Both the position numbers and the translations under genes were made by a program. A stretch of 64,000 nucleotides of DNA, taken from assembly GCF_964019385.1 (NCBI RefSeq), contig NC_088645.1, positions 19,731,380 through 19,795,379 on the forward strand, in the 5' to 3' direction. The notes under the pieces are model-generated. The model ran no database searches, was not told the DNA's origin, and was given only the letters and a program-made list of their open reading frames with translations. Shown here piece by piece: positions 3,550 through 58,298 of this stretch (within the stretch, counting starts at the first letter, position 1; each line of letters begins with the position of its first letter). Source of the stretch: Sycon ciliatum (lineage: Eukaryota > Porifera > Calcarea > Leucosolenida > Sycettidae).

Positions 3550-3593
3550 CTGGGGACAGCACTGTTTCGTCCTTTATGAACTCATCAGCGCAG
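3550..3593 (-). ncRNA. Hammerhead ribozyme, family 1, one stem-I mismatch
   Basis: On the minus strand: stem I CUGCG, core CUGAUGA, stem II GUUC-loop-GGAC (one U-G wobble), GAAA, stem III ACAG-UG-CUGU, cleavage triplet GUC, then CCCAG as the returning stem-I strand. One of five stem-I pairs (C-C) is broken; the paralogue at 20674-20717 has CGCAG and pairs perfectly. Predicted cleavage lies between plus-strand positions 3555 and 3554. The motif is antisense to the receptor gene and starts 83 bases after its short-form stop codon. Hammerheads are known from Penelope-like elements, retrozymes and satellite DNAs. Confidence 0.75.
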
Positions 3594-4347: not shown

Positions 4348-4990
4348 GCGGCAAGTGCGGACAGTGCGCCGCCTCCAACACAATTTGGAGAAATGTAACG
4401 GTATATGCAGAGAGCAGTTCGCTTATGTTAGAAATAAGTCCAACTGCGACCAGCTGATACTTCTCTTCCAGTACATGGCCAGCCTGATAGATGATCACCA
4501 TGATTTTGATGTGATCTGAACGGACTTCCGCAAAGCCTTTGATTGCATAGATCACAACACTCTTCTCTCCCAGTTCCGTGGATTCGCCACGCGGCATGCA
4601 GTAATCTGGCTTCGAACCTACCTAGATGCAAAGAGACCTGTCAGTAAGAGTGGGCGACACCCAATCGCAGCAGTACACCGACACCTGCAGTATACCGCAA
4701 GTATCCCACCTGTACCCGCTGCATTTCATCATTTTCATCAATGACCTCCCTAGCCTTATGAAGTCTGCTACACATTTCGTCTCCACCGATAATGTTACTT
4801 TGCTATGTCCCAACATAAAAGCCAGCCAGGCTACTAGGCAACTACTGATGCAGTCAGATGTTGATGCATGTCAAAGCTGGGCCCGCGTTTGCAGTGGTGA
4901 GGTTTCAGTAGGGGTCAAACGGGTGTACTTTTACCTTCTGACCATAATTCCCAGGCAGTTCCAAATGCGATATTGCAGTATCCCTGCCTG
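4348..4990 (+). pseudogene. LINE reverse-transcriptase fragment
   Basis: Conceptual translation across several frames shows reverse-transcriptase signatures: F-R-K-A-F-D-C-I-D-H near 4530-4560, F-I-I-F-I-N-D-L-P near 4725-4755 and a decayed D-D box (T-D-N-V-T-L-L) near 4785. Stops and frame changes make it dead. The same element is present at 24431-24672, continued at 25205-25241 and 36416-37000. It looks like a CR1/Jockey-like non-LTR element, 5'-truncated; I cannot assign the clade. It lies in the intron before the cytoplasmic-tail exon. Confidence 0.8.
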
Positions 4991-15371: not shown

Positions 15372-16380
15372 CTTGTTGTTGTTGTTGTTTATTTTACTTC
15401 ACCAAATGAACAGGCAGAGATGCCTTCTCACCTGCCCATAGGACAGGTCACACAGAATGATGAAGGGATGATATGCAAGCGAAAACAAGAAATGATAATA
15501 ATAATACTTCGAAGTATAAGACAGAAAGGACCAAAAGAAGAAAAGGAAAAATTTAGATGAAGACAATTTCATGGTAAACAGTTTCCTCTCAAACAAAAAT
15601 GCGATAATACTCATAAAAAGGACACACTTCAGGCTCATTACAAACATCTTGAAGCTTTTATCTTTATACTTTCAAGCCTTCTCGTCAGGTGAAATACAGG
15701 CAAGGGAAAAGGAACAGGAACAGTGGATTAAATACATCTTTTTTTGCGCTGTTTTACCACCTTCTTACTGTATTTAATCCACTGTTCCTGTTCCTTTTCC
15801 CTTACCTGTATTTCACCTGACGAAAAGGCTTGAAAGTGTACTTGTGAAGACAACAACTTTCAAGATGTTTGTAATGAGCCTGAAGTGTGTCCTTTTATGA
15901 GTATTATTACAATTTCATGGAGTCAGAAACAGAAACACAATAATTTCATGGAGGCAAAGAATAGAAAGACAATTTCATGGAGTCAGGAACACGTGGTTGA
16001 TTTTATAGACATGCATGAACAAATGATTGATAGATGAGAAGGTTGGAATTTATGGCACATAATAAAAGTTTAACGAGGATATTCACAAAGTAAGTATATC
16101 AATGGCAGAAAGAGCTTTTCGGAAGGGACCAGGGACACGTATCACTCTAAAATCAGAGGGGAGAGCGTTCCAGAGAATGCTTCCCCGAAACATCATGGTC
16201 GATCGTCCCGCAGGCCCACGAAGAAAGGGAACTTGAAGAAAGTTCGACACTTGTCCCCGTGTGGTGCGCTGATCCTCCGGAACAGTCTCTGGGGCCGTTC
16301 GGGTGAATAACTGTTGAAGAAGGGGGCTACAGGAGGAGCTTCTTGACATCGGTTTTCAAAATGGCTGACCTGGGACAGAA
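15372..16380 (-). pseudogene. LINE 3' end with (CAA)n tail
   Basis: On the minus strand 16349-16083 encodes the typical C-terminal segment of non-LTR reverse transcriptases (V-P-F-L-R-G-P-A-G-R-S then F-R-G-S-I-L-W-N-A-L-P). A 3' untranslated region with AATAAA and a (CAA)n tail ends at 15372-15392. The element is 5'-truncated and split by a foldback at 15601-15908. A related C-terminus lies at 55798-56019. Confidence 0.7.
15601..15908. repeat. Foldback element, arms about 145 bases
   Basis: The sequence from ATAATACTCATAAAA to about 15740 returns inverted from about 15765 to TTTTATGAGTATTAT, with a small loop. A fragment of the same family occurs at about 19050-19090. Confidence 0.85.
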
Positions 16381-18740: not shown

Positions 18741-19731
18741 GGAGGGTAAATTCGGATACCGATACTGTGCTGAGGGCGAAAATCGTGACATGGACAGTGA
18801 GATTAAAGAGAAGGATAAGAAATGTAAATGAAAATGAAGAGTTTTTGTCTTGAATTGAGGAGTGCATTGCAGCTTTACTTATGGTTAACTCATATGGTGA
18901 CATTAGGTTACCTTACAGACACCTTGCGAAACAGGATATACACAAAAATAACGGGTTTAGCATAATGTGCTGTATAAAAGGGTAATATTCGACCTAAGCA
19001 GGGCGGGTTAGGGACTTGATAAGCGGAAGTAAAAACAAGAGTAGAAATAGTTTCCTCTGAGACAAAACTGCGATATTACTCATAAAAAGAGTAGAAATGT
19101 ACCCAATATGTGCTAGAGCCGATAGCCAACTAGTTGTAGAACGCCAGTACAGTCCGTCAGTGGCGTTCCATGGTCCTTTTCTTTACTACTTATATAAGTA
19201 GAAAAGCGTCAATGTGTTACCGTCTCCCCAATGTCATCGAATTCATACAACTACAGTAAAACCTGTGTTTGTCAGACCCTTTACCAAGCGGAATCCTGCG
19301 TTAACCTAACACATTTTCCATGCACCAAAGTGTTGTGGATCGAATGTGTATACATGTACCTGAATCAAGCAGAATCCTGCCATACCAGGACAGTTTCCGC
19401 TGCACCAAGGTGTGGTCGGTAGTGACAGGTTTTACTTTACCTGCATCGTCGTACTTTACAGTGGGGACTTGGTAAGACATTGACAAATGTTTTTACTCCG
19501 TTAGCAGAAGTACATCTCCTATAAATAATCAATATCCGTACTGCTAGCTGTTCCGTCCATGCTAGGTCTCATCTCTATAAAGCAACGTACATTTAGCGCT
19601 CAGCATGTCCACTGTATAACTGATGGTTATTCGAACATCTCAGGTGTACTTTGTTTGGTTGGAAAAAAGAGTTTATCATCGTGTCCGTTTCCGAAGGGAA
19701 CTCACGATGGCCGCTAACACCTGGTAAATCC

Positions 19732-20673: not shown

Positions 20674-20717
20674 CTGCGGACAGCACTGTTTCGTCCTTTG
20701 TGAACTCATCAGCGCAG
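20674..20717 (-). ncRNA. Hammerhead ribozyme, family 1, intact
   Basis: Minus strand: stem I CUGCG/CGCAG (five pairs, perfect), core CUGAUGA, stem II GUUC/GGAC with ACAAA loop, GAAA, stem III ACAG/CUGU with a two-base loop (or three pairs with a four-base loop), cleavage triplet GUC. Predicted cleavage lies between plus-strand 20679 and 20678. It begins 83 bases after the receptor stop codon, exactly as in copy 1, antisense to the gene. Very short stem III is typical of the minimal hammerheads in Penelope-like elements, which may need to dimerise. Confidence 0.85.
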
Positions 20718-21558: not shown

Positions 21559-22201
21559 GGTGTGGAAGGTACTGGTATAGCTACAATACGTCACAGTACC
21601 TCTTCCATCTCGCCACATACGCAGTCGAACCCTTGTCGTTTTCACTATGATTGTTTGTGGCAGTCTTGTATAAAAGCGAAGAAGAGGTTGTTGCTACTTC
21701 TGCGATACACTTACTTAAATTCTCACTTGACCGAATCGCGACTGCAATCCAGAGCACACGGGAAGTCCATCGAAGCTTCCACTCCGCAAACCTGCAAGAC
21801 AGGAACACTCTCTGCTCAATTTCGGGGAATTCACCCCTCATCAGTTGGGCTTGGGTAGGCTGAGGAGGTTTGTGCCCAAAGAGTATCACTTACATAGTGC
21901 ACTCCAGGCACAAAATATCGCCAGAGATACAAACTTACAATGAAGCTCCGTTTTTAGTGCGACAAACATCTGGCTAACACCAGATAGCAGCGCGAGTCGG
22001 TGTCGCTCATTGAATTGTGTGTTGCTCCTAACGTGGGAGCTCGCGCATTTTCTACCGACTTGAATTCTCGCTTGACCGACTCACGACTGCCATCGAGTGT
22101 ACACGAGGCGTCCATCGAGCCTTCCACTCAGCAAACCTGCAAGAAAGCACCGCTTCTTGCTCAATATTTCCTTGTCCCACAACACCAGATCTCGGAGCAG
22201 C
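21559..22201 (-). mobile_element. Ribozyme-family-2 repeat with direct terminal repeats
   Basis: Two related segments of about 110 bases, 21716-21823 and 22059-22170, flank a roughly 220-base interior. All parts resemble 46920-47330. Direct repeats around a ribozyme and a non-coding core recall retrozymes or Penelope-type pseudo-LTRs. No open frame of note. Confidence 0.5.
21814..21850 (-). ncRNA. Degenerate hammerhead, family 2, stem III deleted
   Basis: Minus strand: GCCCAA, core CUGAUGA, stem II GGGG/CCCC and GAAA are present. GAAA is followed directly by UUGAGC, whereas the intact copies at 47100 and 57341 have nine more bases between (stem III and the cleavage triplet). Stem I has one mismatch. 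It cannot self-cleave as read. Confidence 0.75.
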
Positions 22202-22205
22202 TTAA

Positions 22206-24334
22206 CCCTAGAACAGCCAACGGTGTCATTTGACACCGCGCGAGTCAAACTTTTGGAATTACCGGAATATGGCTAATCAGAATAAGCTCAAATCTTGTGA
22301 CTATTCCTAATTTTGAGTCCTCTTTCGTCTGCCATAAATATTTGATTTGTAATTGACGAGGTACCATAATGGCGAGTACGTATACCTAGAACGGCCAACC
22401 AGTGTCATTTGACACCTGCACTATAAAAAGTCATTATTGCAGCTAGATGGAAAGAATATGAACACATTTCGAAGGCGTCAGCCATATCGAGTTTCTCGTA
22501 TGCCAACCAGACAAAATAAAAGGTGCATGGGCAGGAAAATCGCTGAATACAGGACAAAATATTTGATCAACATACAACCGTCGGGCGAGAATCGCGAATT
22601 TGGGGCGGGTAACTATTAGTGCACAGATTACACAAACACTCTTCAGCTAATGTCCTTGATACTGCCCAATCCCTGTCATTTTCCTGTAAATTACCCTAGA
22701 GGAGCCATCGCGGTCTGACGGCCAAGGAAATACTAGAGTAGATGTCGCCTATTACCATGCATGAATCTGATGATCATGAAAGCGAAATTGCCCACGTTAT
22801 CTTCATTTTATGGCTGTTCAAGTGTAGTGACCATTGGCAGTGGTGGATCTGTTCTGTCATATGAGGGCGAATCGCACGGTCACAACACCTGAGTACCTGT
22901 GGATTTAGAATATATTGAGGTTTACGAGCCTCCAGAGAGCGGACGAGGATTGCGGGATAGTCCAGACAAGGAATTGTCAGAAACAGTTGCAGGAGTGGTG
23001 GAGACCCCAAAATAGATAGTGTTGAGGAAGAGGAATCGCAACTCTGTAACCTGGAGATGGTACACCGCATTATCGCAAGCATGGTGCTGTGTAGATAATC
23101 CTTTCTAACCTCTTGACGAGCTAATAAGGCTCTTGAACCAAACCTCTTCCTCCCCCGCTTCAGGCTAAACGGGTAGGCAGCCGCTGGGATGCCTTCTCTC
23201 TCTCTCTCTTTAGTGGCCCCAGATGCTGCAGAAGCTGATTGCTAAGTAATAACTGATAACTTCATCATCAATGCATTACTGGTCAAGAAACTGTTGGAGA
23301 AGAAAGAGTTGCAGTATGAACCAATTTGGTAAATTGAAGTGAACTATCATCTAACCTCATTGCCAATAATCGCGGATTGCATTTAGTTTTCAAGATTACA
23401 GTGTAGGATGCAAAGACGGTAGACGTAGAAGGTAGAAGTAGCAAGAATTATCAATGGTCCGCCTAGTGTAGACCACCTAGAGCCATATGTTTTACATGGT
23501 GAGAGTAGGAAGCCCCACATAATCCAATTCTAGCAAAAGACGAGATATGTCCTTAACTATTTCGATCGAATGTGGTGGATCTACTCAACAAAGACTATTC
23601 CAGAAGATGTCCCCTGCAAGGCGGTTACATAAATGAATAGATGTGACAGGCATCAACCCCTTCACAATATCCCAGACCTTTGCTAGTTCATGCACATCCA
23701 GAAAACGCTCATTCCTGCACTGGTCAATAAGCTTGTAGATAGTCATGGCATCTGGTTGCTAAGTGCCAGCCAAGGAGAAGAGAAGGGCATACCTCTTTGA
23801 AATAGTCTAAAATGCAGTCGTTACTAGCCTAATCTTGAAACCATGTCTAGCAGCATATGTGTCAGTTTGGAGAAAAAATGATGCTCATACTTCGAAGTGG
23901 TCAGTCCATGTTTGTACTTGTTACTGTGTGTTATTCATCGTGACGGTCGAGTAATCCGATTATGCCAAAGCACATATTCCCGAAAAGCAGTTCCCCATGT
24001 GCTCAGTGACGTTGACACATTGCTTGTTATTGTAACTCTGTGATTATAAGAAATTCCTATGCAAGTAATTGAAGTTTTGCCAGTAATTGAGTTCATCCTT
24101 CGCAATTGCCGTTACGCGTACATCGTATTTTAGTTGCGTACGGCCGACAATAGTGTCTGGGTGAATCCTAAAGTGTTGTTGTGTACATCATAAATGCCGC
24201 TAGTGATAGCCAGCACTGAAAACAACAAAGTATAATAACCTATATCATAGGTCTTAGACATGGAAATGTATGCAGGTGTCAAATGACACGGTTTGGCCGT
24301 TCTAGGAGTACTGAAAGTGGTGGCCGTCCTAGGG
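22206..24334. mobile_element. piggyBac-like non-autonomous element
   Basis: Termini CCCTAG...CTAGGG are bounded by TTAA on both sides (22202-22205 and 24335-24338), the hallmark of piggyBac insertion. Both ends carry a GTGTCA-TTTGACAC palindrome and a GGCCGTTCTAG-type subterminal motif (right end) or its relative (left end, and again near 22385). No piggyBac transposase domain is visible in the 2.1 kb interior. Confidence 0.8.
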
Positions 24335-24338
24335 TTAA

Positions 24339-24430
24339 GACCCATTGGATGGGTTGGTGAGTTCCTGTTTCAACCCTGGTCGTACTGGCAACTCCCAAGA
24401 GTGCCACAGCAGACCGGTACATAACGAGCT
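24339..24430. other. Sequence between piggyBac-like element and LINE
   Basis: No independent signature; may belong to either neighbour. Confidence 0.3.
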
Positions 24431-24672
24431 TGGACATTTCTCAATGCGCAGACCTGCTCTGCGACTCCTTAACAACATTGTTCAACTATAGTGTAGATGA
24501 AGGCACTTTTCCGCCTTCCTGGAAATCAGCAACAGTTATTCCTGTGTTCAAGAACAAAGGCAGCCTCGCGGAGTCCACGAAATACAGGCCTATTTCACCC
24601 TTACCCGGCCTGGCCAAACTGTTCGAAAACATCACAGTGCGCCGCCTTCAACGCAATTTGGAGAAATATGTA
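24431..24672 (+). pseudogene. LINE reverse transcriptase, N-terminal segment
   Basis: Encodes F-P-P-S-W-K-S-A-T-V-I-P-V-F-K-N-K-G and Y-R-P-I-S-P-L, the conserved beginning of non-LTR reverse transcriptases, ending at R-N-L-E-K-Y. The element is the one at 4348-4990. Here it is cut by the insertion 24673-25204 and again by the 11.2 kb array, and resumes at 36416. Confidence 0.85.
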
Positions 24673-25204
24673 TAGGATATTGACCAAGACGAGGTCTATA
24701 TGGGAAATATAGGCCGAGTAAAAGACCGAGGTCCGCCGAGGTCTTTTACGAGGCCTATATTTCCCATATAGACCGAAGTCGAGGTCAATATCCTATTTAT
24801 CACGATTCCTTTGCCATAACCCCAAAATTTGAACCTTTAGGAGCTATTTTAACCTTTTTAGTATAGCATTTGTACTATAGTGTACATGGGATGTTGCCTA
24901 TTTTGGGTACAAGACTGTAAGAACAACAGAGTTCAGCATCTGCAGCACAGTGGCTGGGTGGTATAAGGGGTTGCTTGAGATTCATACTGTTGTGAGTTCG
25001 AATCCTGCTTGTTCTCTTCCTTTGTCTTCTTTCTTTCAATTTTTCTTTTTGAAGTGGAGAGAAAAATTCTAAGTCCCTCCAAAGTCGAAAGATTACAATG
25101 CCTAAGTGGTCGATACAAGCGGTCGATATTGCGGCGATATGGGTAATATAGGACCAGTCAAGGATCACGAGAATTAGTGGAGGTCGATATAGAAGAGTGA
25201 TAAA
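24673..25204 (+). mobile_element. Hairpin plus tRNA-like insertion in LINE
   Basis: Starts with a near-perfect hairpin (arms about 24674-24727 and 24740-24794). It also contains an A-box (TGGCTGGGTGG, 24951-24961) and a B-box (GTTCGAATCC, 24996-25005) with tRNA-like spacing. Comparison with the uninterrupted LINE at about 4390-4400 defines the insertion limits. Confidence 0.6.
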
Positions 25205-25241
25205 ACGTTATATGCAGAGAGCAGTTCGCGTATGTTAGAAA
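25205..25241 (+). pseudogene. LINE fragment between two insertions
   Basis: Matches copy 1 around 4400-4433 (TATGCAGAGAGCAGTTCG) and breaks at GTTAGAAA. Confidence 0.8.
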
Positions 25242-25334
25242 CGAGAGAGCTTGGAAGCTCAGGGCCCTACGCTATGCAGTTTTGCCTTGATGACCTAGAC
25301 AAAAAAAAAGCATAGGTATTTTATGTTACCCAAT

Positions 25335-25382
25335 GCTGTAGACAGCAAGCTGTTTCGGCCATAAAGGCCTCATCAGTACAGC
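25335..25382 (-). ncRNA. Hammerhead ribozyme, family 3, intact
   Basis: Minus strand: stem I GCUGUA/UACAGC (six perfect pairs), core CUGAUGA, stem II GGCC-UUUAU-GGCC (four perfect pairs), GAAA, stem III ACAG/CUGU closing a CUUG loop (five pairs if the loop is UU), cleavage triplet GUC. Predicted cleavage lies between plus-strand 25341 and 25340. It sits in an extra segment of about 130 bases inside the first array module, between AAGCATAGG and TTATAAATTC; the other modules lack it. All invariant hammerhead positions are satisfied. Confidence 0.92.
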
Positions 25383-25545
25383 TACGAGCTAAATAGGCCG
25401 AGCTACCAGCCATGGTGCAAAGGAGGCACCCAAGACATTAAGGTAGTATTGTTATAAATTCTTCAAAAAATTCCTTTTTTTTAAGGCATAACCTGGGATT
25501 CGAACCCGCACTATCGCGCCCTGCATGCATCCCCCGGTCTTTAAA

Positions 25546-29002: not shown

Positions 29003-29384
29003 CGAGAGAGCTTGGAAGCTCAGGGCCCTATGCTATGCTTTTTTGCCTTGATGACCTAGACAAAAAAAAGCATAGGGATGTTTTTTTTTTTTTTTTTACT
29101 ACAAAGCACTGGCCAGCAACATAAAAGGGGAGATAGACAAAAGTGGACAAGCGAACTTTGACAACACAGAGGAGCGTGGCATGCGTGCCGATGAGGTAGG
29201 TCAACCTCCCCCGACCTAGTGGTCTCGGATTCAACAGTTGGTCTACGCATCAGGAAGGGGAAATGGACAGAGAAAGGGAGAATGAGCATGAGGAGCTTCC
29301 CAGGAGAGGAAGAGTGAGAGAGAGACAGAAAATGATAATAATAGAGACAACCAGTTATAAATTCTTTAAAAAATTCCTTTTTTT

Positions 29385-32114: not shown

Positions 32115-32321
32115 TTAAAGCTGTGTGGACCCTGGCTAGCGCCAGACGTTACTGAAGTAACGTCTTCTGCCTAGCTACGGGAATTAAAGCTGTGTGTACC
32201 CTGGCTACGGCCAGACGTTACTGAAGTAACGTCTTCTGCATAGCTACGGGAATTAAAGCTGTGTGGACCCTGGCTAGCGCCAGACGTTACTGAAGTAACA
32301 TCTTCTGCATAGCTACGGGAA
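32115..32321. repeat. 69-bp repeat family A, three units
   Basis: Units at 32115, 32184 and 32253, spacing exactly 69. Confidence 0.9.
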
Positions 32322-32429
32322 CGAAAGAGCTTGGAAGCTCAGGGCCCTACGCTATGCTTTTTGTCTTGATGACCTAGACAAAAAAACCCATAGGGACGTT
32401 ATAAATTCTTTAAAAAAATCCTTTATTTT

Positions 32430-32830
32430 AGGACATAACCTGGGATTCGAACCCGCACTATCGCGCGCCCTGCATGCATCCCCCGATACACTTCGCATAC
32501 ATACTAATTCTTCCAAGTTGTTTCACATTGTGATCTTGCTTCTGAAAGCCCTATTTGAATATACATTGTGGCCAGCCGTCATTGATGGCACGGTACGGTA
32601 GGGGATAGGTACGGGACAGGTACGATCGAGGGTAATACGACACCGTTTCCCGTACCGTACCGTACCATCAAACACAGCTGGCCACCACCAGCTGCCCGCA
32701 ATATTCAGATAGGGCTTTCAAACGCAAGATAATAACGTGAACCAACTTGGAAGAATGGGTATGAATGCGAAGTGTATGGGGGAATGCATGTAGGGCGATA
32801 GTGTGGGTTCGAATCCCAGGATATCCCTTA
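32430..32830. mobile_element. Foldback unit 3
   Basis: Same family; the loop contains a GGTACGGGACAGG-type motif. Confidence 0.75.
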
Positions 32831-33054
32831 AAAAATACCAGAATTGAAAAATCTATAACATCCTATGCTTTTTTGCAGTCAGATACGGATAGCGCCAGGC
32901 GTGACACAAACAAACAAACACACAAACAAACAAATACCAAACGAGAGAGCTTGGAAGCTCAGGGCCCTACGCTATGCTTTTTTGCCTTGATGACCTAGAC
33001 AAAAAAAGAATAGGGATGTTATAAATTCTTATAAGTTTCTACTTTATGTGTTTA

Positions 33055-35095: not shown

Positions 35096-35664
35096 AACTA
35101 ACGTCCATTCTAATAGCATTTCCTCGTCTCCCTACTTCGTATTTCTTTCCAGAAAATCTCCCTATACAGCAGGGAGTCGTTTACATAATACGACTCCCTG
35201 CTATACATCTATATACGTTATAATTATTATGCTATCGGCCTACATGCGATTCCCGGGCTGGTCGACAGGCGGCCCAGCCAGCCTGCCAGTGGGATCTCGG
35301 CCTCGCACACAAATCCACACAAAATGCTACTGCACTATCGGCTTGAATGCATTCCCCCGATACACTTCGCATATATATACTCATCCTCTTGATGGTACCG
35401 TACTCTTGATGGTACGGGACAGGTACGGGATAGCGCCGGGCATGCTGATGGCACAAACAAACAAAAATATTGTGGCCAGCTGTCTTTGCTGGTACGGTAC
35501 GGGACAGATACGGGATAGCGCCAGGCGTGACACAAACAAACAAACAAACAAACAAACACCAAACGAGAGAGCTTGGAAGCTCAGGGCCCTGCGCTATGCT
35601 TTTTTGCCTTGATGACCTAGACAAAAAAAAGCATAGGGATGTTTTCTTTAAAAAATCCTTTTTT

Positions 35665-36015
35665 TTAAACCTGGGATTCGAACCCGCACTATCGCGCGCC
35701 CTGCATGCAGCCCCCGATACATTTCGCATACATACTAATTCTTCCTAGTTGTTTCACATTGTGATCTTGCATTTGAAAGCCCTATTTGAATATGCATTGT
35801 GGCCAGCCATCTTTGATGGCACAGTACGGTAGGGAATAGGTACGGGACAGGTACGATCGAGGGTAATACGACACCGTCTAGCTGCCCGCAATATTCAAAT
35901 AGGGCTTTCAAACGCAAGATTAACGTGAAGCAACTTGGAAGAATGGGTATGAATGCGAAGTGTATGGGGGAATGCATGTAGGGCGATAGTGCGGGTTCGA
36001 ATCCCAGGATATGCC
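35665..36015. mobile_element. Foldback unit 5
   Basis: Same family with a shortened loop. Confidence 0.7.
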
Positions 36016-44594: not shown

Positions 44595-46033
44595 TTTAGG
44601 CTGCGTTTACACGACAACGATTGAAAACGATTTGTGTTTACACGACAACGAAATACGACCTAAATGGAACGAAATTGTTGCGTTTACTACTATCGTTTAC
44701 ACGACAATACCCGAAAATGATACTAAACGGAACGAAATGGAAACGCACTTCAAAGTGTTTTGAAACGTTTTCAAAACGTTTCCGTTCCCGTGTAAGGGCG
44801 CGCTCACACTGCGACCAAAACCAGCGTCCATGCGGCCATGCGGCCAAGTTGCATGGCAACGGCATGAACTTGACCAAAACGTCGCGGCCACGTTTCAAAT
44901 CGTGACCGCGACCTCCGGAGGGGGGGTGCCACGACTTGGCGGCAACATGATCGTAGACGTGCAGCGTATTTGTGTACAACCTGGCCTGAAGTATGTTCAA
45001 TTTCTCAAATTCCGGTGTGTTGATTCAGGAAAATCGGCGGTTGTCGATGTCACCTCGACATTTGCACATTTTTAACATTAATTTTTGTAGGTGTGGTCCT
45101 GCACGCACGCACCGCCATAATATGCATTCTTTGCCCTTTTTGGACGATGTCGATTTTGTTTTTGTTTTTGTAGTTGCTTCGTTGTGATCGGGTCAGTGAC
45201 CAATTTCTACAGTGTACTCGTTCAATACGATGGCAGCTTGGTCTGGCTTTTCCGTTTCGGAAATCATCTTTCTCTACTTCTCTGCGATGATGGAATGCCA
45301 TACCTCAAGACATTTCAGTTACATATCACCGGAAAATACAGTTCTCATCTCGGCAACAGACGAAAGAAACCACTACCGGAATTTCCACTGCACTGGCACT
45401 TGCTCTGACCACGAGGTCAGGAAAGCGAAAGCGCTCGGATGTCAGCGGCAGTCCCTCAAGAGTCCAAACCTACCTGATTGTATGAATTATTTTCGTCGAC
45501 TTCAAGAATACGAGCCAGGAGCCACGAGGCACTTCCTCCAACATGCAACATGCGAAAAATTACATCCAAAACGGGCCACAACTTTATTAGGAAACGCACG
45601 AACTCTTTTGGATACGAACTGCAATTCGTAAAGTTTGTGTGACAACTTCACGTCTACGCGTGTACGAGGCCTAGTGTGAGCACGACTCCCACGTTTCTGC
45701 GTTTTGCTGACGCATGGACGCGTGCTCATGGTCGCAGTGTGAGCGCGCCCTAAACGGCGAAAACAGTGAAAACGATTGGAAACGGAGCGCGGTCATGGAA
45801 ACCATTCCGCGCTGGAGTATATTTCGCGGGAATTACCCAACCCTGGCGGCCACCAGCACGTACCAACTCGAACTGACGGGTTACTTCCCGCCCTTGCGCC
45901 AAGCCAGCACGTGCTAACTCCTGCCTGATCACCCGTTTTCCGTTTTCGTGTAAACGGTTTGAAAACGGTGCGAGGACAGACCATTTTCGTTCTTTTCCGT
46001 TTCGTTTCGTTTCATTTCGTCTCCGTGTAGACG
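44595..46033. mobile_element. Outer element with ACACGACAACG / GTGTAAACG ends
   Basis: GGCTGCGTTTACACGACAAC at the left end is roughly mirrored by CGTGTAGACGCATC-type sequence at the right. GAAAACG-rich flanks resume on both sides of the inner element, which suggests nesting. Confidence 0.4.
44798..45751. mobile_element. PIF/Harbinger-like MITE
   Basis: TIRs GGGCGCGCTCACACTGCGACC, mirrored as GGTCGCAGTGTGAGCGCGCCC, flanked by TAA on both sides. A three-base TWA duplication and GGG-starting TIRs fit PIF/Harbinger. Internal frames, including 45212-45631 on the plus strand, show no known transposase. Confidence 0.7.
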
Positions 46034-46150
46034 CATCATTTGAAATCAGAAATCAGTTGTTGTATAGAAATGAGTAAAGCGCAACAGCTTTTATAGGGTT
46101 CGCTCACATATCGCCCGTACGCGCCGGGAGTCACTGGGAGTGGGCCTCTT
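46034..46150. other. Left flank of tandem duplication
   Basis: Sequence not shared with the second unit. It includes a TAGGGTTCGCTCACATA motif that partly mirrors TGTGTGAACC near 46840, so a transposon end is possible. Confidence 0.35.
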
Positions 46151-46919
46151 GCAACGTCTCCCGGCGCATTACGATTATGTGAACCAGTGCAGTCGCAACA
46201 AAATGATACGGTAAAATGTCGCCGGCAAAGTGACCGCCGGCAAAGTTGGACAGTGCCCAACTCTTGCGATCTGCCTCGGCGCCGATCCCGTAGAATTTTG
46301 ACCGAAATGGTTTGTGAACTGTTTTCGCTGGTGATCGCCAGTGCCGGGAGCCAGACTTTGTCAAAATTTCAAACCAAGCCTCATCCAAAATTTCCCTACA
46401 TTGAAGCTAAAGATGAGGTCCGTTCGCCATTCTTGTAGTCGGTTTTAAAGGTGGCAAATTAAGTCAGCGTACCAATCCGTCCTTCTCGGATGATCTGCTT
46501 GACTGTTGTGCAACGTATGAGACAAATACAATTGAAATGAATGAAAAATACGAATGATACATAAACAAGTTCGCGTGACTTCATCAACGTTTGCACTCAT
46601 AATTTCGACACCACCGCTTACTAGACTGCAATAGAAGTAGTTTCATCTCCAGTGAGAGGTAGGACGAAGTGGACATCACCGAAAGACTCTCAATTACTAA
46701 GAAAAGAAGAATTGAAGCGTAGCATTTGGGCACATTCTGTACTACTTTGTAGTGGATTTGGTACTCCAACCGTATGAGCAAGGGATCAGGAGCTGGCTGA
46801 CCGCCGATGTCTTGCGGCGCCGATTTTGCTTGTGTGAACCAACTATTTTTTTTTTTTTTTGGAGAATCAAAGATTATTTTTACCATGGCCTAAAACGAAA
46901 AAGTTCCAAGTATCAGTTT

Positions 46920-47590
46920 AGTTTACGAACTTAGAAGTTACGACTTCGGCGGTAATAGTCATGAAGTTGATTGTTCCAACTAGGAACACACGCTTCTGGC
47001 CGAACTTGACACTTGACTGACTCACGACTGCCATCCGGAGCACACGAGGAGCACGTCGCACCTTCCACTCGGCAAACCTGCAAGAAAGCACCACTCCCTG
47101 CTCAATACACGGTGTTTCGGGGAATTCACCCCTCATCAGTTGAGCTTGAGTAGGCTGAGGAAGATTGTGCCTGAAAAGCACCACTTATAACCTGCTCTCC
47201 AGGCCAAACCATCACCAGGGATACAAACTTACAGAGACGCTTTGTTTCCAGCGCGACAAACGCCTCGTGAAGCTCCAGCTAGCAGCGTGAGTCAGAGTCG
47301 CTCATGGAGTTGTGATAAACAGACGTTGAGAGCCAGTATAGCTATTCGCAACGCTGTCACCTCCAACAACTAGTCGCACGTCCGCGTGAGGGACAACAAT
47401 ACGAACTTAGAAGTTACGACTTCAGCGGTAATAGTCATGAAGTTGTGTGGTGCTTTCTTGCAGGTTTGCCGATAGGAAGGTGCGACGTGCTCCTCGTGTG
47501 CTCCGGATGGCAGTCGTGAGTCAGTCAAGTGTCAAGTTAGGCAAGAAGCGTGTGTTCCTAGTTGGAACAATCAACTTCAGTTTAGTTTAG
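46920..47590 (-). mobile_element. Ribozyme-family-2 repeat in unit A
   Basis: Ends ACGAACTTAGAAGTTACGAC recur in direct order near 47400, and CTTGACTGACTCACGACTGC (about 47010-47035) returns inverted near 47510. The element carries an intact hammerhead and a non-coding core like 21559-22201. Followed by an AATAAA-type tail and (CTA)n at 47580-47730. Confidence 0.6.
47100..47145 (-). ncRNA. Hammerhead ribozyme, family 2, intact (unit A)
   Basis: Minus strand: stem I GCUCAA/UUGAGC (six perfect pairs), core CUGAUGA, stem II GGGG-UGAAUU-CCCC, GAAA, stem III ACA-CCG-UGU (three pairs), cleavage triplet GUA. Predicted cleavage lies between plus-strand 47106 and 47105. GUA satisfies the NUH rule but is less common than GUC. 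The very short stem III suggests cleavage as a dimer. Confidence 0.85.
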
Positions 47591-47730
47591 TTTAAATATC
47601 TCTTATTATTATTTTTTTCTCACCCCACACCCCTCTACTCTGTTATCGGCCCTCTTAAGAGTTGTGTTCATCACTGTTGAGGCTTCCGATGGAAAATAAA
47701 AGAAGACTACTACTACTACTACTACTACTA
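47580..47730 (+). mobile_element. Retroelement 3' end with (CTA)n tail
   Basis: GGAAAATAAAAGAAGA is followed by nine CTA units. Unit B has five at 57945-57961, so the tail is length-variable between the two units. Confidence 0.6.
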
Positions 47731-48067
47731 AAAAACCAACTCATTGGGCGGCAGACTCCGTACGCTATCGTACAGGGATACGCTAAATATACGCTATACG
47801 CTATACACTATACGCTATACGCTACAATAGTAGTCAGCTACAGTTCAGTGCCCTCCGTGGTCAACGCAGGCCGCGGTCTCAAGATGCCCGCCAGAGAGTC
47901 TGATGCTTCTGTGGTCCTTGCTGCTGCAGGGTGCTTTCGGTAACTATCCGTGGTGTATTTGGCTACTGTTCGGCTTCATTCCCCCTCATTTTTCATGATT
48001 TTTGATGGTACTATTTTCTCGGATTCCGGTTTTCCACTCTGTTATGTTCGAATCCATAGTCTGTCTG
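47731..48067. other. Spacer with TACGCTATA repeats
   Basis: Nine-base TACGCTATA-like repeats at about 47760-47825; otherwise nothing recognised. Confidence 0.5.
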
Positions 48068-48414
48068 TACGCAAGAGGTACACAAAAGGAAGTATATAGG
48101 GCTGTTTTTTTTGTTGTAACTCAGAGTTTCATGGCAAAAACCAATCATCAGACAACATAAGGAGATTAGAAAAACGCAGGTATATGAAGGCAAGCAGAGG
48201 AGATAGAATAATTCAGTGCAGACAATATGATAATCATTCAACACCTCCCATCATATTGTCTGCACTGAATTATTCTATCTCCTCTGCTTGCCTTCATATA
48301 CCTGCGTTTTTCTAATCTCCTTTTTATGTTGTCTGATGATTGGTTTTTGCCATGAAACTCTGAGTTACAACAAAAAACAGCCCTATATACTTCCTTTTGT
48401 GTACCTCTTGCGTA
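48068..48414. repeat. Foldback element, arms about 165 bases (unit A)
   Basis: The arm from GTACGCAAGAGGTACAC to about 48233 returns inverted from about 48253 to GTGTACCTCTTGCGTAC, nearly perfect. Counterpart at 58299-58643. Confidence 0.9.
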
Positions 48415-48732
48415 CTACGCTCTGCCCATTCCGGGCATTTGAGCACTATTGCAGGTTAAGGCGCACACCCTCTGTGTAGTCTGTCTGTACAACGTGATTC
48501 GCGATTTTTCGATATGTCGCAATTTTTGGACAAATCAGTTAAATATGGAAGTAGAGTCCTCCTGGGTCGTTGTCCTTTCCTTGGTGGACAAACTTTTGAC
48601 AAGAGTGTCTTCGTGTGGTCCTCAAGTTTCTTCGTAGCTATTTTTCCGGCGAAATGCGTTTCTTTCGGGACGTTTTCTTTACTCTTCTTAGGTAATGTTA
48701 TGAGTAATTTTGACAATTTCGATTAAACATGA

Positions 48733-48894
48733 ATGATGGACGATTCCGTCGACTCTACGTCGCATGACGGAGAGAATGGCGACATGGGCGATGTTGTATC
48801 TCTTCATTCAACCCCAGGGACTACGTCTTCCACCTCGAATCCGCCTGGAAGAGACTCCCTGCCTTCACAGCTGGTGCATTTGTCGAGGGGTTAA
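48733..48894 (+). other. 53-codon ORF, intact only in unit A
   Basis: Starts M-M-D-D-S-V-D and is acidic then Ser/Pro-rich. In unit B (from 58961) one A is missing within CATTCA(A)CCCC and the frame shifts. Probably a transposon remnant or chance frame; no family recognised. Confidence 0.3.
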
Positions 48895-49719
48895 AACAAC
48901 ATAACAATTAAATGTTCAGGGATATCTCACTACAGTCAAAGTTGAAACTTTTCACGTGCAAGCGAAATTGCTGCAAAAATTTAGAAAGTGGATCTTGAGA
49001 TGTCAGCCTTGGTGGAAGGCAGTTCCACAGCCTTTTTGGTGGAAGGCAGTTACACAGCCTTCCGATGTTATGCAGTCAGAGAGAAGAAGAGATGTTGTCA
49101 TGAGAATTAAAGAGCAGTTTATTTGGTTGGGGGGGGGGGGGAGGTTGGCTATGGATAATGCTCTAGTAATTTTAAAAAAAAGTTTTAGTTGATGTTCGTT
49201 GACTATGGAAGGAGATATGGAGCAACGGGGAAGATGAGCTGATTATCCGCAGAATGAGGTTGACATTGGTTGGACGAGTATAACGAATCCGAAGACAGTT
49301 GAATATGAAAACAATATTTTCAAAGGTAACTCAAACTAATTGTTTTGGCAATGAAAAAAATGGTTTACAGAAGAAGTGAACTAATATATAGAATAAGTAA
49401 TGTCTTCTCTTTTCCATGTTGATCTCTACTGCAGTATGCTGGAACACCTTGGTATGGAGATACTCGTTTAACATTTTGTTGAACATAAGGCCACTTGCAA
49501 GTACGAAAAGGCACAATTTTCCGACTTTTGAGGCTCCATAAGTACAACAAAGTGTGCATCTACCCCCGTACCAAAGCATATTATGAGGATTTTGCAAGCA
49601 TAATGCAAGAATCCATTAAAGCATAATTCCATGCTTTCGCGAGAATAATCCTGCGAAGCCTACATCGTACGTGACGCATTCCTTGACTCCATGGCATTTT
49701 CAACCTGCTGAAACGCGCG
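48895..49719. other. Downstream flank of the 575-codon gene
   Basis: A short direct repeat (TTGGTGGAAGGCAGTT twice near 49010-49050), a G run at about 49129-49142 and AT-rich sequence. No gene. Confidence 0.4.
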
Positions 49720-51447
49720 TCAACTGCAGCTAGGGCATATGCGTTGAAGACAATTGATATGTTCCCCTGCCTTCAATTGCTTAAATCCAACGTATTGTCT
49801 GTCCAGAGGAATATCTGTACACTTACCGGGCTGATGTAATACTCCGTTGAAAAGAGGAATCAGAGACAATGACGTCAGTCCAATGTGCTTCCTAGTGCAC
49901 AAGAACATCTCCATGGTAACTCGGTCCTTTAGATCTCCCTTGGTGCTTAAGAAACGAGTGACGAGGGGAATCATTTGGAAGAGATTCATGCCATAGTCCA
50001 CTGGCGCCTCCTGGCACCAGATTAAACTATGTTGATGATGTGGTCTGAACGCTGAGGTATCATAAAGCGCCAGAATCCCACAAAGGGAATTTTCGCCTCT
50101 TTGTTTCAGAAAGATTTTCATCATCTCAATATGCTTAGGTGCAAAGCCTTCCAGAACTGCACCGGCTTCCATAAATGCTTGTAGATGACACATATCGAAT
50201 TTCTTGTTCTCATAAGCCCTCATTGAGCGCAAGGGCGAGATGCACGAGTTACTATTCCCTGTGTACAAGCCTTCTCCATTGTCGTCGTATATATTAAACG
50301 GTAAAACAGTATCGCCGTTGTTGCTCACCTGTAGCGCGAATCTTAACAGTATATCCAGCAGCAGCTGCTTAGCTATTCGATCCACCTTTGTTTCGGCTGG
50401 AATGCTCATCGCCCTTTTGAATAAATTCAAGTCTGTAAAGAGAATATACAGCCAGTCGCCGAACCAGCATGCCGCGTTTCTCCACTGCACTTCATCATCC
50501 GCCTCGAACCTATTTAAAATATATATACTTTTCGAATGCACATATTTCCAGTGCCCGTCCTCCACTTGTAGTCGTCCCTCGTATCGGGCTATGGCAGCGA
50601 GAGTACCTTCAACAGGCCGTTTTGGCATCAGACAATCAAGGCCCACGAAATTACCACCAGGTGGTAGATGGTTGCACAAGTGCGGCACATGAAATAATCC
50701 GTCGGCAGCGATGGGAATTACAGATAGTGATGTCAGCTTCGGGTGTACCTTGGTGCGTTGCAGCATCTTGATGGCGATGGGGTCTGCGCAGTTTCCATTT
50801 TTGAATGCGAGACGTATGACGAGGGGAAGCATTTTGTCTGAGTTCCAGTTACACCCTTCAGACTCGCCCATTTCGAAATAAGACTGCGGGCACAGGGTGG
50901 CGGGTTCTGATGGCCAGCAGATGAAAGCTTCGGGAGTTCCACTATTCAGAATACTATTTGTCGGATCCAAGCCTGCGTCAACCAATTTTTTTCTCATCAG
51001 TTTTTCCTCTACGTCCTCAACTCCTTCCAGTCTGGCACCGGCATTGACCAAGGCATCTAAATGGTCCTCTTGAAATCCATCATTTGCCATGCTTACCATG
51101 TAATTCAACGGTGAGACGCACGGATACTCAGGACCATAAATGATGAAATGCCTGAACCTTTCATCCTTCGTCGTAAATAGGTCCTCCTTAGCTGGAATGG
51201 TTATTGCCAATTTCAGCAGTTTCTGGAGCAAAAGTTGCTTGGCCATCTTGTCAACCAATGTTTTGGGACGAATGGTCATCGCCCCCCTGAATAACTCTAA
51301 GTCCATGAACAAAATGTAGAGCCAGTCCCCATACCAAGAAGCAGCGTCTCTCCACCGGACCTCGTCATCTATGTTGAACCGCCTAAGCAAGTATTTGCTC
51401 TCCTCCCAAACATCATTCCACGTCCAAGCTTCTTCACTATAGGCCAT
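49720..51447 (-). CDS. Unrecognised two-repeat 575-residue protein (unit A)
   Basis: Uninterrupted minus-strand frame, 575 residues, ATG at 51445-51447. I do not recognise the family. The protein is an internal duplication: residues about 16-275 resemble 304-560. Shared blocks are D-D-E-V-x-W-R-x-A-A-x-W-x-G-D-W-L-Y-I-L-F, then I-A-K-Q-L-L-L-type helices, a C-x-S-P-L...A-G-A-x-L-E-G stretch reminiscent of an ankyrin turn, and L-T-S-L-S-x-I-P near each end. There is no signal peptide or membrane helix, so it is probably cytoplasmic. The lack of introns could mean a retrogene or a single-exon gene. Silent and replacement differences from unit B (59946-61673) are strongly skewed to replacements. 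A tyrosine/tryptophan-rich, helix-rich scaffold is inferred only from composition. Confidence 0.75.
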   Translation of the reverse strand: MAYSEEAWTWNDVWEESKYLLRRFNIDDEVRWRDAASWYGDWLYILFMDLELFRGAMTIRPKTLVDKMAKQLLLQKLLKLAITIPAKEDLFTTKDERFRHFIIYGPEYPCVSPLNYMVSMANDGFQEDHLDALVNAGARLEGVEDVEEKLMRKKLVDAGLDPTNSILNSGTPEAFICWPSEPATLCPQSYFEMGESEGCNWNSDKMLPLVIRLAFKNGNCADPIAIKMLQRTKVHPKLTSLSVIPIAADGLFHVPHLCNHLPPGGNFVGLDCLMPKRPVEGTLAAIARYEGRLQVEDGHWKYVHSKSIYILNRFEADDEVQWRNAACWFGDWLYILFTDLNLFKRAMSIPAETKVDRIAKQLLLDILLRFALQVSNNGDTVLPFNIYDDNGEGLYTGNSNSCISPLRSMRAYENKKFDMCHLQAFMEAGAVLEGFAPKHIEMMKIFLKQRGENSLCGILALYDTSAFRPHHQHSLIWCQEAPVDYGMNLFQMIPLVTRFLSTKGDLKDRVTMEMFLCTRKHIGLTSLSLIPLFNGVLHQPGKCTDIPLDRQYVGFKQLKAGEHINCLQRICPSCS

Positions 51448-52211
51448 TGCAGAATCTCAAATCAAACGGTCAACACAGAGACAATGGCCGTAGCTAAATG
51501 CGACAAAGAAACTAGGCGGGCGATGCCGATAGGATGTTCATAACTTTGGCTTTGCATATACTATGGACACTGGTGCAAGTGTATCACGTACATTTAACTC
51601 TACACGTATCCATAAAGAATGGATCTGTTTGTACGGCACTGTATTACATTTGCAGTGTTATACGCAATTCTACAATACGATGATATATGCAACATCAAGC
51701 AACGGCAGAGATAACACATTCTCCTTCTATGCAAAGAGTTCCGGATATTGTTCACGAATGCATAGAGGTTCTTACAGCGAATATGAAACTTCGATCTAAC
51801 ACGTGTGACTATCAACAATATCTGTGTACGACTCACAACAGCTATTCTCCATCAGCACTCGGCCGAAGCCCGGAGATAGGTACCCACCGAGCTAGCATCC
51901 GGCAAATAAAGAGTGGACAATGATTTAAATGATGCTAGACTGGGACTAAGGTAGAAAAAAAGAGAAACACATAACTATCTTTCTAATTAATCAAATGAAA
52001 CACGAGAGGGTTTGGAGGAAAACATTGGAGCAATAGACTCCCACCACCTACCCCAGACTGAGAGGCATTACGAATCAAGGACGTTGCGCAGGATCACTGT
52101 CGAGCCATGGCGATCACTCCTTTGCAATTCCGTCAAAGAACAGTATGTGGCGATACTGCTGGTGTAAGGTAGCCTCCTGGCACTTTTTTGAAACGGTGCC
52201 TAACGGTCCAA
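51448..52211. other. Upstream region of the 575-codon gene
   Basis: 764 bases between two minus-strand frames. Almost identical in both units. No obvious TATA box; a promoter should lie here. Confidence 0.4.
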
Positions 52212-52658
52212 CTACCCCCGAAACAACCCTAATCTGCCACATTCGATAGATCTCGTGAGGAAGAAGTTGATACTTGGTACGATTACCAACTTCCTTTTAG
52301 CAACGCTTGGATCAACGGGTACAGCAAGGTCAGTTGCAGGTCTTGAAGGCTCATCAACCAGAAAAATATCAGCCCGTCGGTGCTCAATGAATCGATCGCA
52401 TAAGATGGTGAAATCTACAAGATCTTGATCTTCTCGTCCTGTGGAGGGATGTTTACGTCTGAAATACATGACTGTATCTCTAGCAGCAGATACATTGCTC
52501 CCGGGTGAAGGGTGCTCTTCTACCGATTCATTGCCGTTGATATGCTCAATCACAGGATCACGACGATGCGTGTAGGACTTATTCTCACTTGTATGGTATT
52601 CCATGTACACGACAGAGCGACTAGTGGACAAAAAGGCGAGCCGATTGTGACAATCCAT
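52212..52658 (-). CDS. Unrecognised 148-residue ORF (unit A)
   Basis: Minus-strand frame starting M-D-C-H-N-R-L, upstream of the 575-codon gene on the same strand and preserved in unit B. It has a charged middle (V-M-Y-F-R-R-K-H-P) and an F-L-V-D-E-P segment. By eye it shows about five replacement and three silent differences between units. A separate gene, an upstream exon, or a fragment of an old element are all possible. Confidence 0.4.
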   Translation of the reverse strand: MDCHNRLAFLSTSRSVVYMEYHTSENKSYTHRRDPVIEHINGNESVEEHPSPGSNVSAARDTVMYFRRKHPSTGREDQDLVDFTILCDRFIEHRRADIFLVDEPSRPATDLAVPVDPSVAKRKLVIVPSINFFLTRSIECGRLGLFRG

Positions 52659-53094
52659 GTAAGGTAGGGGGGGGGGGAGGAGAGGGGAGTAGGCACCGGC
52701 GGATTATGCCGGCATAATTCTTGGCATAGCTTGGTGGTTGAATATTTGGAGCATAATGTGGCATCCTTTCCGAGGTAGAAGCATAACTACATGATTGTAC
52801 CACCGTTCTAGTATGTAGGCTACACAATTGTGTACATTGCACCTGATCAGTGATGGTGAGCTGCATGGTAAAGGGTTCAGAGGTTATGCATATAGAGTTT
52901 TCAATGAAAAACAGGGTAGAAATCATGGCAATACATTATTGTACGCTCGAACTCGTCTTCTTCAAGGTTCTTTCTCACGTTGATACAGTACATTAAGCAG
53001 GCTCGGAAGATGCGAGTGAATCAGCCTTACTAGGAATCCTGGGGCGGACGAGATAGTGACCGGTAGTCCGCAAAACTCCACGTACATGTACATG
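52659..53094. other. Spacer with GGATTATGC repeat fragment
   Basis: Contains a G-rich run (52664-52685) and GGATTATGCCGGCATAATT (about 52700), related to the nested MITE at 40383-40994. Confidence 0.5.
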
Positions 53095-53800
53095 TACATT
53101 ATGAATGTCCTAGAAATCGAATTTTCATAATGAATAATAATAATAATATTTAAATAACCGACGAAGAGACAACAGTCGTAAAATAGCAATGAAAAATATC
53201 AATTGTGCACTCATAACCATGTATAAACAATAAAAATGAAACAATTCCAGAACGTTTTCTTGTGACAATTATCAGGGGAACATCGTCACATAGTAAGAAT
53301 CACTAAAAGAACCAGTTATATAGCTAGAGTAATATGAAAAGAAGCGTGCTAATGCAGCACAGCTAGCGGTTATGCATAACGCGTGTAGTGTGAACCTTTG
53401 CAGTGTATCTGAGAGTGGTAGCAGTAGATGAATGTGGCAGCTGTGAGTGCGTGTGATAATATTTCAAATTTTTGAAGGACGTTTCACGCAGCTTCATTAT
53501 ACTTGAATCGTTTGCAGGCAACCTGTCTACACTCAAGAGAGCACTGCATTTCACACAAATCCATTATAGGTATCGTTTCAACGTTTCGGTCTTCATGTTC
53601 AACGTTTCGGTCTTCAGGACCATCATCAGGAAATGATTCCTGATGATGGTCATGAAGACCAAAACGTTGAAACGATACCTCTGATGGATTTATGTGAAAT
53701 GCTGTGCTCTCTTGAGTGCAGGCAGGTTGCCTGCAAATGATTCAAGAATAAAAATATTATTTATTATGAAAATTCGATTTCTAGGACATTCATAATGTAC
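53095..53800. mobile_element. Inverted-repeat element with nested foldback (unit A)
   Basis: Outer ends GTACATTATGAATGTCC and GGACATTCATAATGTAC, with TIRs of about 50 bases. An inner foldback at 53497-53755 has arms meeting at CCATCATCAGG/CCTGATGATGG. A third partial arm lies at 53801-53831. Confidence 0.8.
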
Positions 53801-53831
53801 ATTATGAATGTCCTAGAAATCGAATTTTCAT

Positions 53832-55020
53832 CACGAGCTGAATTTCAAAATACCCTCCTTGCCAGGTCGATGGAGTCGCGCTGAGACCAAATGCTGCGTG
53901 GTCAACCAGCCCTGTATTGTCACTGATTAGAGTGTCGACATTTGGAGACAAAATAGTTGTTCGACAAGTAAACTACAACAAGCAGAATTATGCTCCCTCC
54001 TCACCGAACCTGAGGAAAACCCACACCTCGCTGCGTGCTGCGAACTCCGGCAACTCGGGTTAATGTACGCAAACATCGTGTTGCTGATCAGCTTTCGATG
54101 TCCAGATTTTGATTCTGATTTTGATTGTCGATCATCGATCAAATCCGTCGATCTGCTATGTCACGCGGTAGTCGGCACACGGCCGGTTTCAGGACGCAAA
54201 AATATCATGGTTCGATCGCACAAATCGAGATTTGTTAAACATTTTTTGCACTTCTGCAGAGCTTTGCTGCTAGTGAAATTCGAGTCGTTCAGGGAAGGAA
54301 ATTGTTGTTGTTTGGAGTGACAAGGGTTGTCAGTTCAAATTTCTTTTCAGACTCGTTAGAGGTGACCACGCTGCAGTGTTTGGCGTGTTGGCGTCTGGAG
54401 CGTATCTGGTGTTGGAGCTTGGGGAGGCGCTTTCCGTCGTCGGGTAGGAAATTGGCAATGTTGCAATGTGGTGAAGTGGAAATATTCAAATTTGTATATT
54501 TCCAGAAAACGTTGAACACAATCTACGAGACATGTCTTGGGTGGTAGTGGAGATAGTCCCCTGTCCTGCAGTGCATGGTGCAGAAAAATAGACGCCGTAA
54601 ATGGGTCCCGCTATGGCCCTTAAATTTTGGCTATTTTAGCGATGCAATTTAGTGATATTTGGAGATGATGGCCAATGCTTTCCTGGATGTAGCCATGGCT
54701 CTATGTGGTGGTGATGTGAAGACTACTCAGGTGAGGTAATGTGGGCATGGTGGTGGTTTGTTCTCAGCTCAATCGAGTAAGCTGTACCAGCGCTCGTTTT
54801 TGGACCCATTATCCAGTCCTGTTTTGGGCCTATTTGGAGGTGGTCCCCAGCTCCAAGGTGTTCTTAATTATGCAACGAGCCCTTTTGAATGGTTGTTGTA
54901 GACGCCAAAGCAAACCTACTTGCCAAATTTGACTGAAATCGGAGAGATGGCCCAACCAAGCTATTCTGGTTTTCTCAGACATCTTCGGGGAGTACTGCTG
55001 TTGTGTGTGAAGAAAATATA
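53832..55020. other. Unique part of unit A, nothing recognised
   Basis: Short frames only. The unit-B counterpart would be outside the window. Confidence 0.4.
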
Positions 55021-55026
55021 GTATGG

Positions 55027-55102
<76 letters not shown>

Positions 55103-55135
55103 GAGAGACAGAGAGAGAAAGAGAGAAAGACGGCT
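55021..55135. repeat. (GA)n microsatellite
   Basis: About 110 bases of nearly pure GA. Confidence 0.95.
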
Positions 55136-55174
55136 TTACTACCTGGACAAGGAAATTGTACAAGCTGTCACAAA

Positions 55175-55620
<446 letters not shown>

Positions 55621-55797
55621 AGAGAGATAGATAGAGAGAGAGAGTGTGTGTGTGTGTGTTTGTGTGTCAGAGACAGAGATACAGTGAGAGAGCGGGGGGG
55701 GGGGAGAGATATGTGGATTGTTAAAATGGATTTCGACATGAAGTTAGGTACACAAAATGTTAATATGGGTAAAGGCTGGGCAAGTCGAGAGCCGTGG

Positions 55798-56019
55798 CTA
55801 GAGCTTAAAATGTCCGCCAATCGCGTTCCGTAAGGACTGCAACTGGGAGAGCATTGAACGACGTCCAGCGGGACCAGGGAGGAATGGAACTCTCATCAGG
55901 CTTGACACTTGACCCCGTGTCGTCATTTGTGCGGAATCGTTTGTGCGGAATGGTGTGTTAGCTCTCCTGCTCTCCCAGATGTGTTTGCCACGTCTTGTCC
56001 TCTCTGCTAGCGCAAGCAA
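55798..56019 (-). pseudogene. LINE reverse-transcriptase C-terminal fragment
   Basis: T-R-G-Q-V-S-S-L-M-R-V-P-F-L-P-G-P-A-G-R matches the segment at 16083-16349 but lacks the downstream L-W-N-A-L-P in frame. Dead fragment. Confidence 0.6.
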
Positions 56020-56391
56020 TTCCAGCTTCCTCTGTTCCAGGGCGTATCCAATCTAGGATGTGATAGATACTCCATACTGAGCAAAGAACGGTTGGTGCTT
56101 GCCGGCAGGGTTTTCAACATCATTATAAGTCGAGATCTATCTGCCCGTAATGTCTTAGCTTTGTTGCGCGACTTTACTAATCAAGTTGGTTCCGGTGGTC
56201 TCGAGCTTGCCGGCTTGCCACTGGCGTTTTCACTGTGCGTCTCAGACAAGGAAATGCCACATCTGGTCAAGGAACATCGAGCAGCAGCATATACTAAGCA
56301 ATTGAGATCTTCCATTTGAAGATCTTTGTGTTTACTAGTGGTGTTGATCACTCCAGGGATTGCTTTGTTCACAAGTGATGTCACCTGATCT
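56020..56391 (-). other. End of unit A, possible LINE remnant
   Basis: A minus-strand frame with N-C-L-V-Y-A-A-A-like sequence (about 56240-56300) could belong to the LINE of 55798-56019. The duplication junction follows GATCT at 56391. Confidence 0.35.
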
Positions 56392-57830: not shown

Positions 57831-58298
57831 GTTTAAATATCTCTTATTATTATTTTTTTCTCACCCCACACCCCTCTACTCTGTTATCGGCCCTCTTAAG
57901 AGTTGTGTTCATCACTGTTGAGGCTTCCGATGGAAAATAAAAGAAGACTACTACTACTACTAAAAAACCAACTCATTGGGCGGCAGACTCCGTACGCTAT
58001 CGTACAGGGATACGCTAAATATACGCTATACGCTATACACTATACGCTATACGCTACAATAGTAGTCAGCTACAGTTCAGTGCCCTCCGTGGTCAACGCA
58101 GGCCACGGTCTCAAGATGCCCGCCAGAGAGTCTGATGCTTCTGTGGTCCTTGCTGCTGCAGGGTGCTTTCGTTAACTATCCGTGGTGTATTTGGCTACTG
58201 TTCGGCTTCATTCCCCCTCATTTTTCATGATTTTTGATGGTACTATTTTCTCGGATTCCGGTTTTCCACTCTGTTATGTTCGAATCCATAGTCTGTCT

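Follow-up and report, generated by a model that had tools for sequence, protein, structure and literature searches.

The 64,000-nt stretch of the Sycon ciliatum genome analysed here (hereafter, the window), at G000:C3:19731380-19795379 of the 538-Mb assembly, carries a type-I hammerhead ribozyme motif at positions 25335–25382 on the minus strand. The motif lies in a 5'-truncated copy, at 25329–25446 on the same strand, of a small, non-coding and non-autonomous element of the retrozyme type with a 237-bp unit, which we call family C. We assign a probability of roughly 0.8 to the view that this copy and its relatives arose by a full retrozyme insertion cycle, in which tandem units would be transcribed, cut by the ribozyme, closed into circles and copied from a fixed start by target-primed reverse transcription.

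Read directly on the minus strand from 25382 to 25335, the motif has a stem I of six pairs (GCUGUA/UACAGC), a stem II of GGCC-UUUAU-GGCC and a stem III of ACAG-CUUG-CUGU, arranged around a core of CUGAUGA, GAA and C17 with a GUC triplet. The features that define the type-I class, i.e. CUGANGA, GAA, a cleavable H17, three helices and an open-ended stem I, are all present. The original prediction had stated that every invariant position occurs on the minus strand, which was borne out by this reading and by a type-I descriptor, and had placed the cut between 25341 and 25340, where the direct reading also predicts it. The descriptor identified four motifs in the window, whereas 200 dinucleotide shuffles averaged 0.005 motifs each, and a relaxed descriptor returned the identical four motifs in the window and none in 100 shuffles. 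Across the 538-Mb genome, the 34-nt core of the family C ribozyme had 776 matches with at most three mismatches, against zero for the reversed control. The earlier judgement that a chance match was very unlikely hence holds with respect to the shuffles, but not in the sense that the motif is rare in the genome.

Three Rfam covariance models (RF00008, RF00163 and RF03152) share the core residues and three helices with the motif, but none of them scored it at its gathering cut-off. Hammerhead_3 gave 25.9 bits against a cut-off of 48.5 (E-value of 0.0016 for 301 bases and 0.33 for the window), in an alignment that used the wrong closing helix by pairing stem I with stem III. RAGATH-1 recovered the right topology with 17.2 bits against a cut-off of 56.3. 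The original prediction had proposed that a sub-threshold covariance score would speak against the motif, and this is what was obtained. The gathering cut-off is a detection threshold, which stands outside the structural definition of a type-I hammerhead, and we overrule the low scores because of the shuffle controls and the 776 genomic core matches. The competing pairing of stem I with stem III is nonetheless real, because the hammerhead is not the minimum-energy fold of the motif (−14.6 versus −15.5 kcal/mol). The same order was found for the 121-nt insert (−34.5 versus −38.9 kcal/mol) and for the circular unit (−79.3 versus −82.2 kcal/mol). The motif itself is genuine; its cleavage is a prediction from the sequence.

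The copy in the window is 118 nt long (0.5 unit). With the cut site as the origin of unit numbering, it comprises positions 132 to 237 and then 1 to 12, and it differs from the 237-bp unit at 2 of the 118 positions. It is flanked by an imperfect target duplication, which on the minus strand reads TAACATAAAATAC on the 3' side of the element (25316–25328) and TAACAATA, plus a C common to the element, on the 5' side (25447–25454). The two copies of this duplication differ by a 4-nt indel, and its automated score was only 5. The element interrupts a host module (25239–25536, plus strand) of a repeat array. The module motif occurs in nine copies, at 25240, 26068, 28095, 29001, 29877, 32320, 32940, 34515 and 35562, and only the first carries the hammerhead segment. 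The module alignment spans the insertion site in four other modules, none of which has the segment: three are uninterrupted (32320–32485, 32939–33030 and 35561–35716, all on the plus strand) and one, at 29001, has a different insert.

These results uphold the earlier statements that the segment is present in one of nine modules and that it arrived separately. Its estimated length of about 130 bases also agrees with the 131 bp taken up by the element and one copy of the target duplication. The carrier, which the original prediction had left unnamed, can now be given with good confidence as a tandem 237-bp element of the retrozyme type.

Other features of the array were also noted. The different insert in module 29001 occupies 29083–29353, has a T-run at its end and sits at the equivalent AT-rich site. 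The array as a whole is seemingly nested in LINE-like reverse transcriptase sequence (24370–24667 and from 36430 onward; also near 4394), and a related stretch near 4361–4434 lacks the insert of 24668–25203.

A query of 174 bases around the motif yielded at least 84 matches in the 538-Mb genome (40 of the 1491 candidates were scored), most of them confined to the insert and many at a spacing of about 237 bp. The units of family C are joined head to tail and abut directly with nothing between them, and they contain neither an open reading frame nor long terminal repeats. Loci were picked, not at random, through their ribozyme matches (the best scores, the first 30 exact matches listed and 20 stretches from that list). 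After removal of overlaps, 77 distinct elements of 0.40 to 5.84 units were extracted from 90 loci. At L018 and L021, a second short inverted copy lies behind the 3' end. Diversity was 0.0097 in the ribozyme and 0.049 in the rest of the unit, a difference that we discount as evidence because the loci had been chosen by ribozyme matches. Nothing was found in phage or plasmid DNA by sequence search, or in viral contigs by pattern scan.

The 3' ends of the elements were largely uniform. In 63 of the 77 elements the sequence ended 12 nt past the cut, with CATTGGG or close variants, and was followed by TA (59 elements), TG (three) or TT (one). The remaining 14 elements failed the automated 3'-end test; inspected by eye, six of them have an identical or near-identical end next to a substitution (L029, L044, L055, L073, L079 and L085), three stop slightly short of it (L054, L061 and L080) and five have their end elsewhere (L012, L047, L066, L070 and L077). 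The shared end at +12 therefore points to reverse transcription that begins at one constant position inside the unit, downstream of the cut. Because a cut unit ends at position 237 and lacks positions 1–12, insertions with the +12 end must have been copied from RNA that continues across the cut site, i.e. an uncut multimer or a resealed circle. Target duplications scored at least 9 in 29 of the 63 elements, compared with 3.2% when flanks were swapped between loci, although several of these duplications sit in TA-rich repeats; they exceed the 4 bp given for metazoan non-LTR retrozymes.

The 5' ends, in turn, were variable, ranging from 1 to 219, and not quite uniform in their distribution (Kolmogorov–Smirnov p = 0.01). 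About five of the 63 lie at +1 to +3 where 0.8 were expected, a count made by eye after L010, L036 and L083 were dropped, in which the flank continues the unit. Such an excess would likewise result from processed linear 5' ends or from a stall at the ligation junction.

The insertion cycle that we favour would run as follows. Tandem genomic units would be transcribed, the ribozyme is predicted to cut between them, and the cut units would be resealed into circles. Target-primed reverse transcription, most probably by an enzyme supplied by a Penelope-like element, would then begin 12 nt beyond the cut junction, at the fixed site that appears in the genome as the common 3' end. Copying would proceed for 0.4 to 5.8 units before stopping at variable points, seen as the variable 5' ends, and insertion would leave the observed target duplication, which usually starts with TA. 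The copy in the window would represent one of these insertions, 0.5 unit in length, in a module that belongs to a repeat array unrelated to the element.

Variants within the arrays bear on the nature of the template. In the 36 arrays with two or more units, 48 variants were common to all units that cover the position. When full units were shuffled between arrays (300 trials), the mean was 5.3 such fixed variants and the maximum 14. A further 217 within-array variants were not fixed, of which 210 were confined to a single unit and seven were partial, and the six-unit array L009 had no fixed variants at all. Searches with exact 27-mers, which would overlook any donor that carries a further change close by, showed that private variants were restricted to their own arrays: all five genome-wide matches for L010 were the five units of that array, all three for L071 lay within L071, and all three for L012 lay within the main L012 array. 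The simplest reading of private variants in every covering unit would be several laps round one molecule. If reverse transcription starts at +12, a linear unit released by cleavage could not be copied from that point, leaving only resealed or never-cut RNA; the combination of ribozyme and start site would then act as a selector for circular templates. That each multi-unit array is the product of a Penelope-type reverse transcriptase travelling several times round a single circle made by the ribozyme, with ribozyme and start acting as such a selector, is a tentative proposal to which we give slightly less than even odds.

A possible though less probable alternative is that the same element is copied from uncut linear multimeric RNA transcribed from a parent array, in which case the ribozyme would be dispensable for insertion. 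Such a template accounts equally well for a 3' end beyond the cut and sits well with a unit whose best fold is not the hammerhead. Moreover, RNA with a dead ribozyme still inserts, with no reduction, in the in vitro system of the Anolis Penelope element, and the authors of that study caution that the ribozyme may be dispensable (PMC11167929). Against a linear template stand the private variants, which in the three arrays searched with exact 27-mers occur in all covering units and were absent elsewhere in the genome. No parent array is therefore visible for these three, and their donor may be lost, polymorphic or missed.

It is rather unlikely that arrays instead grew in place after insertion, with unequal crossing-over or slippage homogenising their units. 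This process would likewise yield units with common private variants, and the many single-unit variants in L009, L072, L083 and L090 indicate ageing after insertion. In contrast, the three identical units of L071 and its exact 15-bp target duplication fit the insertion of a whole array, even if the number of units may have changed later. We consider it highly improbable that the segment is a MITE, a short DNA transposon with terminal inverted repeats that carries the motif by chance: its ends show a weak inverted similarity, with scores as high reached by 126 of 5000 shuffled sequences and by 186 of 5000 segments of the window, but its relatives have only the 3' end in common and vary in their 5' ends and unit numbers. 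A chance or decayed motif without function, as the low Rfam scores might suggest, is equally implausible and was rejected on the basis of the shuffle controls and the genomic matches against the reversed control.

The window contains two more families of hammerheads, A and B, both of which the original prediction had missed. Family A is represented at 20674–20717 (minus strand), found by the descriptor, in a copy that looks severely truncated relative to the 226-bp unit elsewhere in the genome. A second family A motif, with one mismatch in stem I, occurs at 3550–3593 (minus strand) in a segmental duplicate of the copy at 20 kb. Family B was detected by the descriptor at 47100–47145 and again at 57341–57386 (both minus strand), the second copy being part of a tandem duplication of about 10.2 kb, and has a 476-bp tandem unit; a further family B motif, at approximately 21811–21850 (minus strand), lacks exactly the 9 nt of stem III. 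Family A had 1543 genomic matches, and family B had 4368 at no more than three mismatches. Pairs in stems I and II change on both sides across the three families while pairing is kept, with the sole exception of one outer G-G of stem I in family A. Furthermore, families A and C have in common ATTG(A/G)GTAT just after the cut, as well as TTGAGCACTCTGGC, and five family A loci diverge from the unit at a comparable distance past the cut. In family B, inspection by eye revealed two alternative 3' ends about 30–37 nt apart, and head-to-head copies in which both outer ends are 3' ends (L097–L099). The G+C content of one unit each was 48.7% for A, 50.6% for B and 52.7% for C. The family A copies in the window look like short remnants in a duplication of about 1.4 kb beside an EGF-like open reading frame. 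A decayed hammerhead considered at 19540–19573 (minus strand) was rejected, as it has no core.

Family C resembles the non-LTR retrozymes of metazoans (PMC7229834): these have a type-I hammerhead, tandem non-coding units of about 150–450 bp, target duplications of more than 4 bp and Penelope-like elements in the same genome. The same study discusses a model in which animal retrozymes are copied from circular RNA. Family C differs in its G+C content, which lies below 50% in the retrozymes described there (a trend, not part of the definition), and in its host, a calcareous sponge. The Penelope element PAc of Anolis is cut at +26 of its open reading frame and starts reverse transcription at +111–118, so that in vitro work on a Penelope-like element has already reported a fixed internal start beyond the cut; its targets are AT-rich and both strands are extended (PMC11167929). 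Family C shares with PAc the cut upstream of the start, the AT-rich targets and the tandem arrangement, but the distance between cut and start is 12 nt in family C and about 85–92 nt in PAc, as computed from the positions in PMC11167929. The two 3' ends and head-to-head copies of family B recall the two start sites and both-strand extension of PAc, and the spacing of those ends recalls its optional tail of 30–40 bp (PMC11167929).

Penelope-like elements carry an open reading frame for a reverse transcriptase and a GIY-YIG domain, whereas the 237-bp unit has none, and we infer that a Penelope-type enzyme moves the retrozyme. Penelope-type genes are present in the genome, as indicated by at least 13 GIY-YIG matches (150 of the 944 candidates were scored) and by L106, where a GIY-YIG match accompanies a reverse transcriptase match of 26.9 bits (cut-off of 29.6). 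L105, which like L106 has a long frame, shows GIY-YIG only. Comparison of the L105 and L106 loci with the retrozyme units found no sequence link between them. Another GIY-YIG match, L103 (G000:C291:5914-6141), is on a contig that perhaps stems from a symbiont or contaminant, and its frame presumably resembles bacterial UvrC. At L104:2026 (plus strand), a hammerhead-like CTGATGA...GAAA string in a locus with a GIY-YIG match could be a minimal Penelope-type hammerhead.

The window contains several other features. The tandem duplication of about 10.2 kb extends over about 46000–64000, with an open reading frame of 575 amino acids in each copy; the 575-aa protein is 99% identical to EukProt entry scpid68605/scgid13813. 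At about 22208–24338, inverted CCCTAGAAC ends adjoin TTAA (by eye), and we take this element to be possibly piggyBac-like. Long hairpins at 48184–48296, 58415–58527, 15698–15807 and 53764–53833 matched microRNA models below the cut-off and are probably inverted-repeat elements.

A limited search of the literature brought up no hammerhead or retrozyme from a sponge genome. Family C belongs to a recognised type of element, of which we found no earlier description from this host, and it may add a sponge to the hosts of retrozymes. Its insertion footprint is clear and can be tested. Moreover, the genome itself provides a test of the circle model, through the combination of one fixed start just beyond the cut and private variants that run through all covering units.
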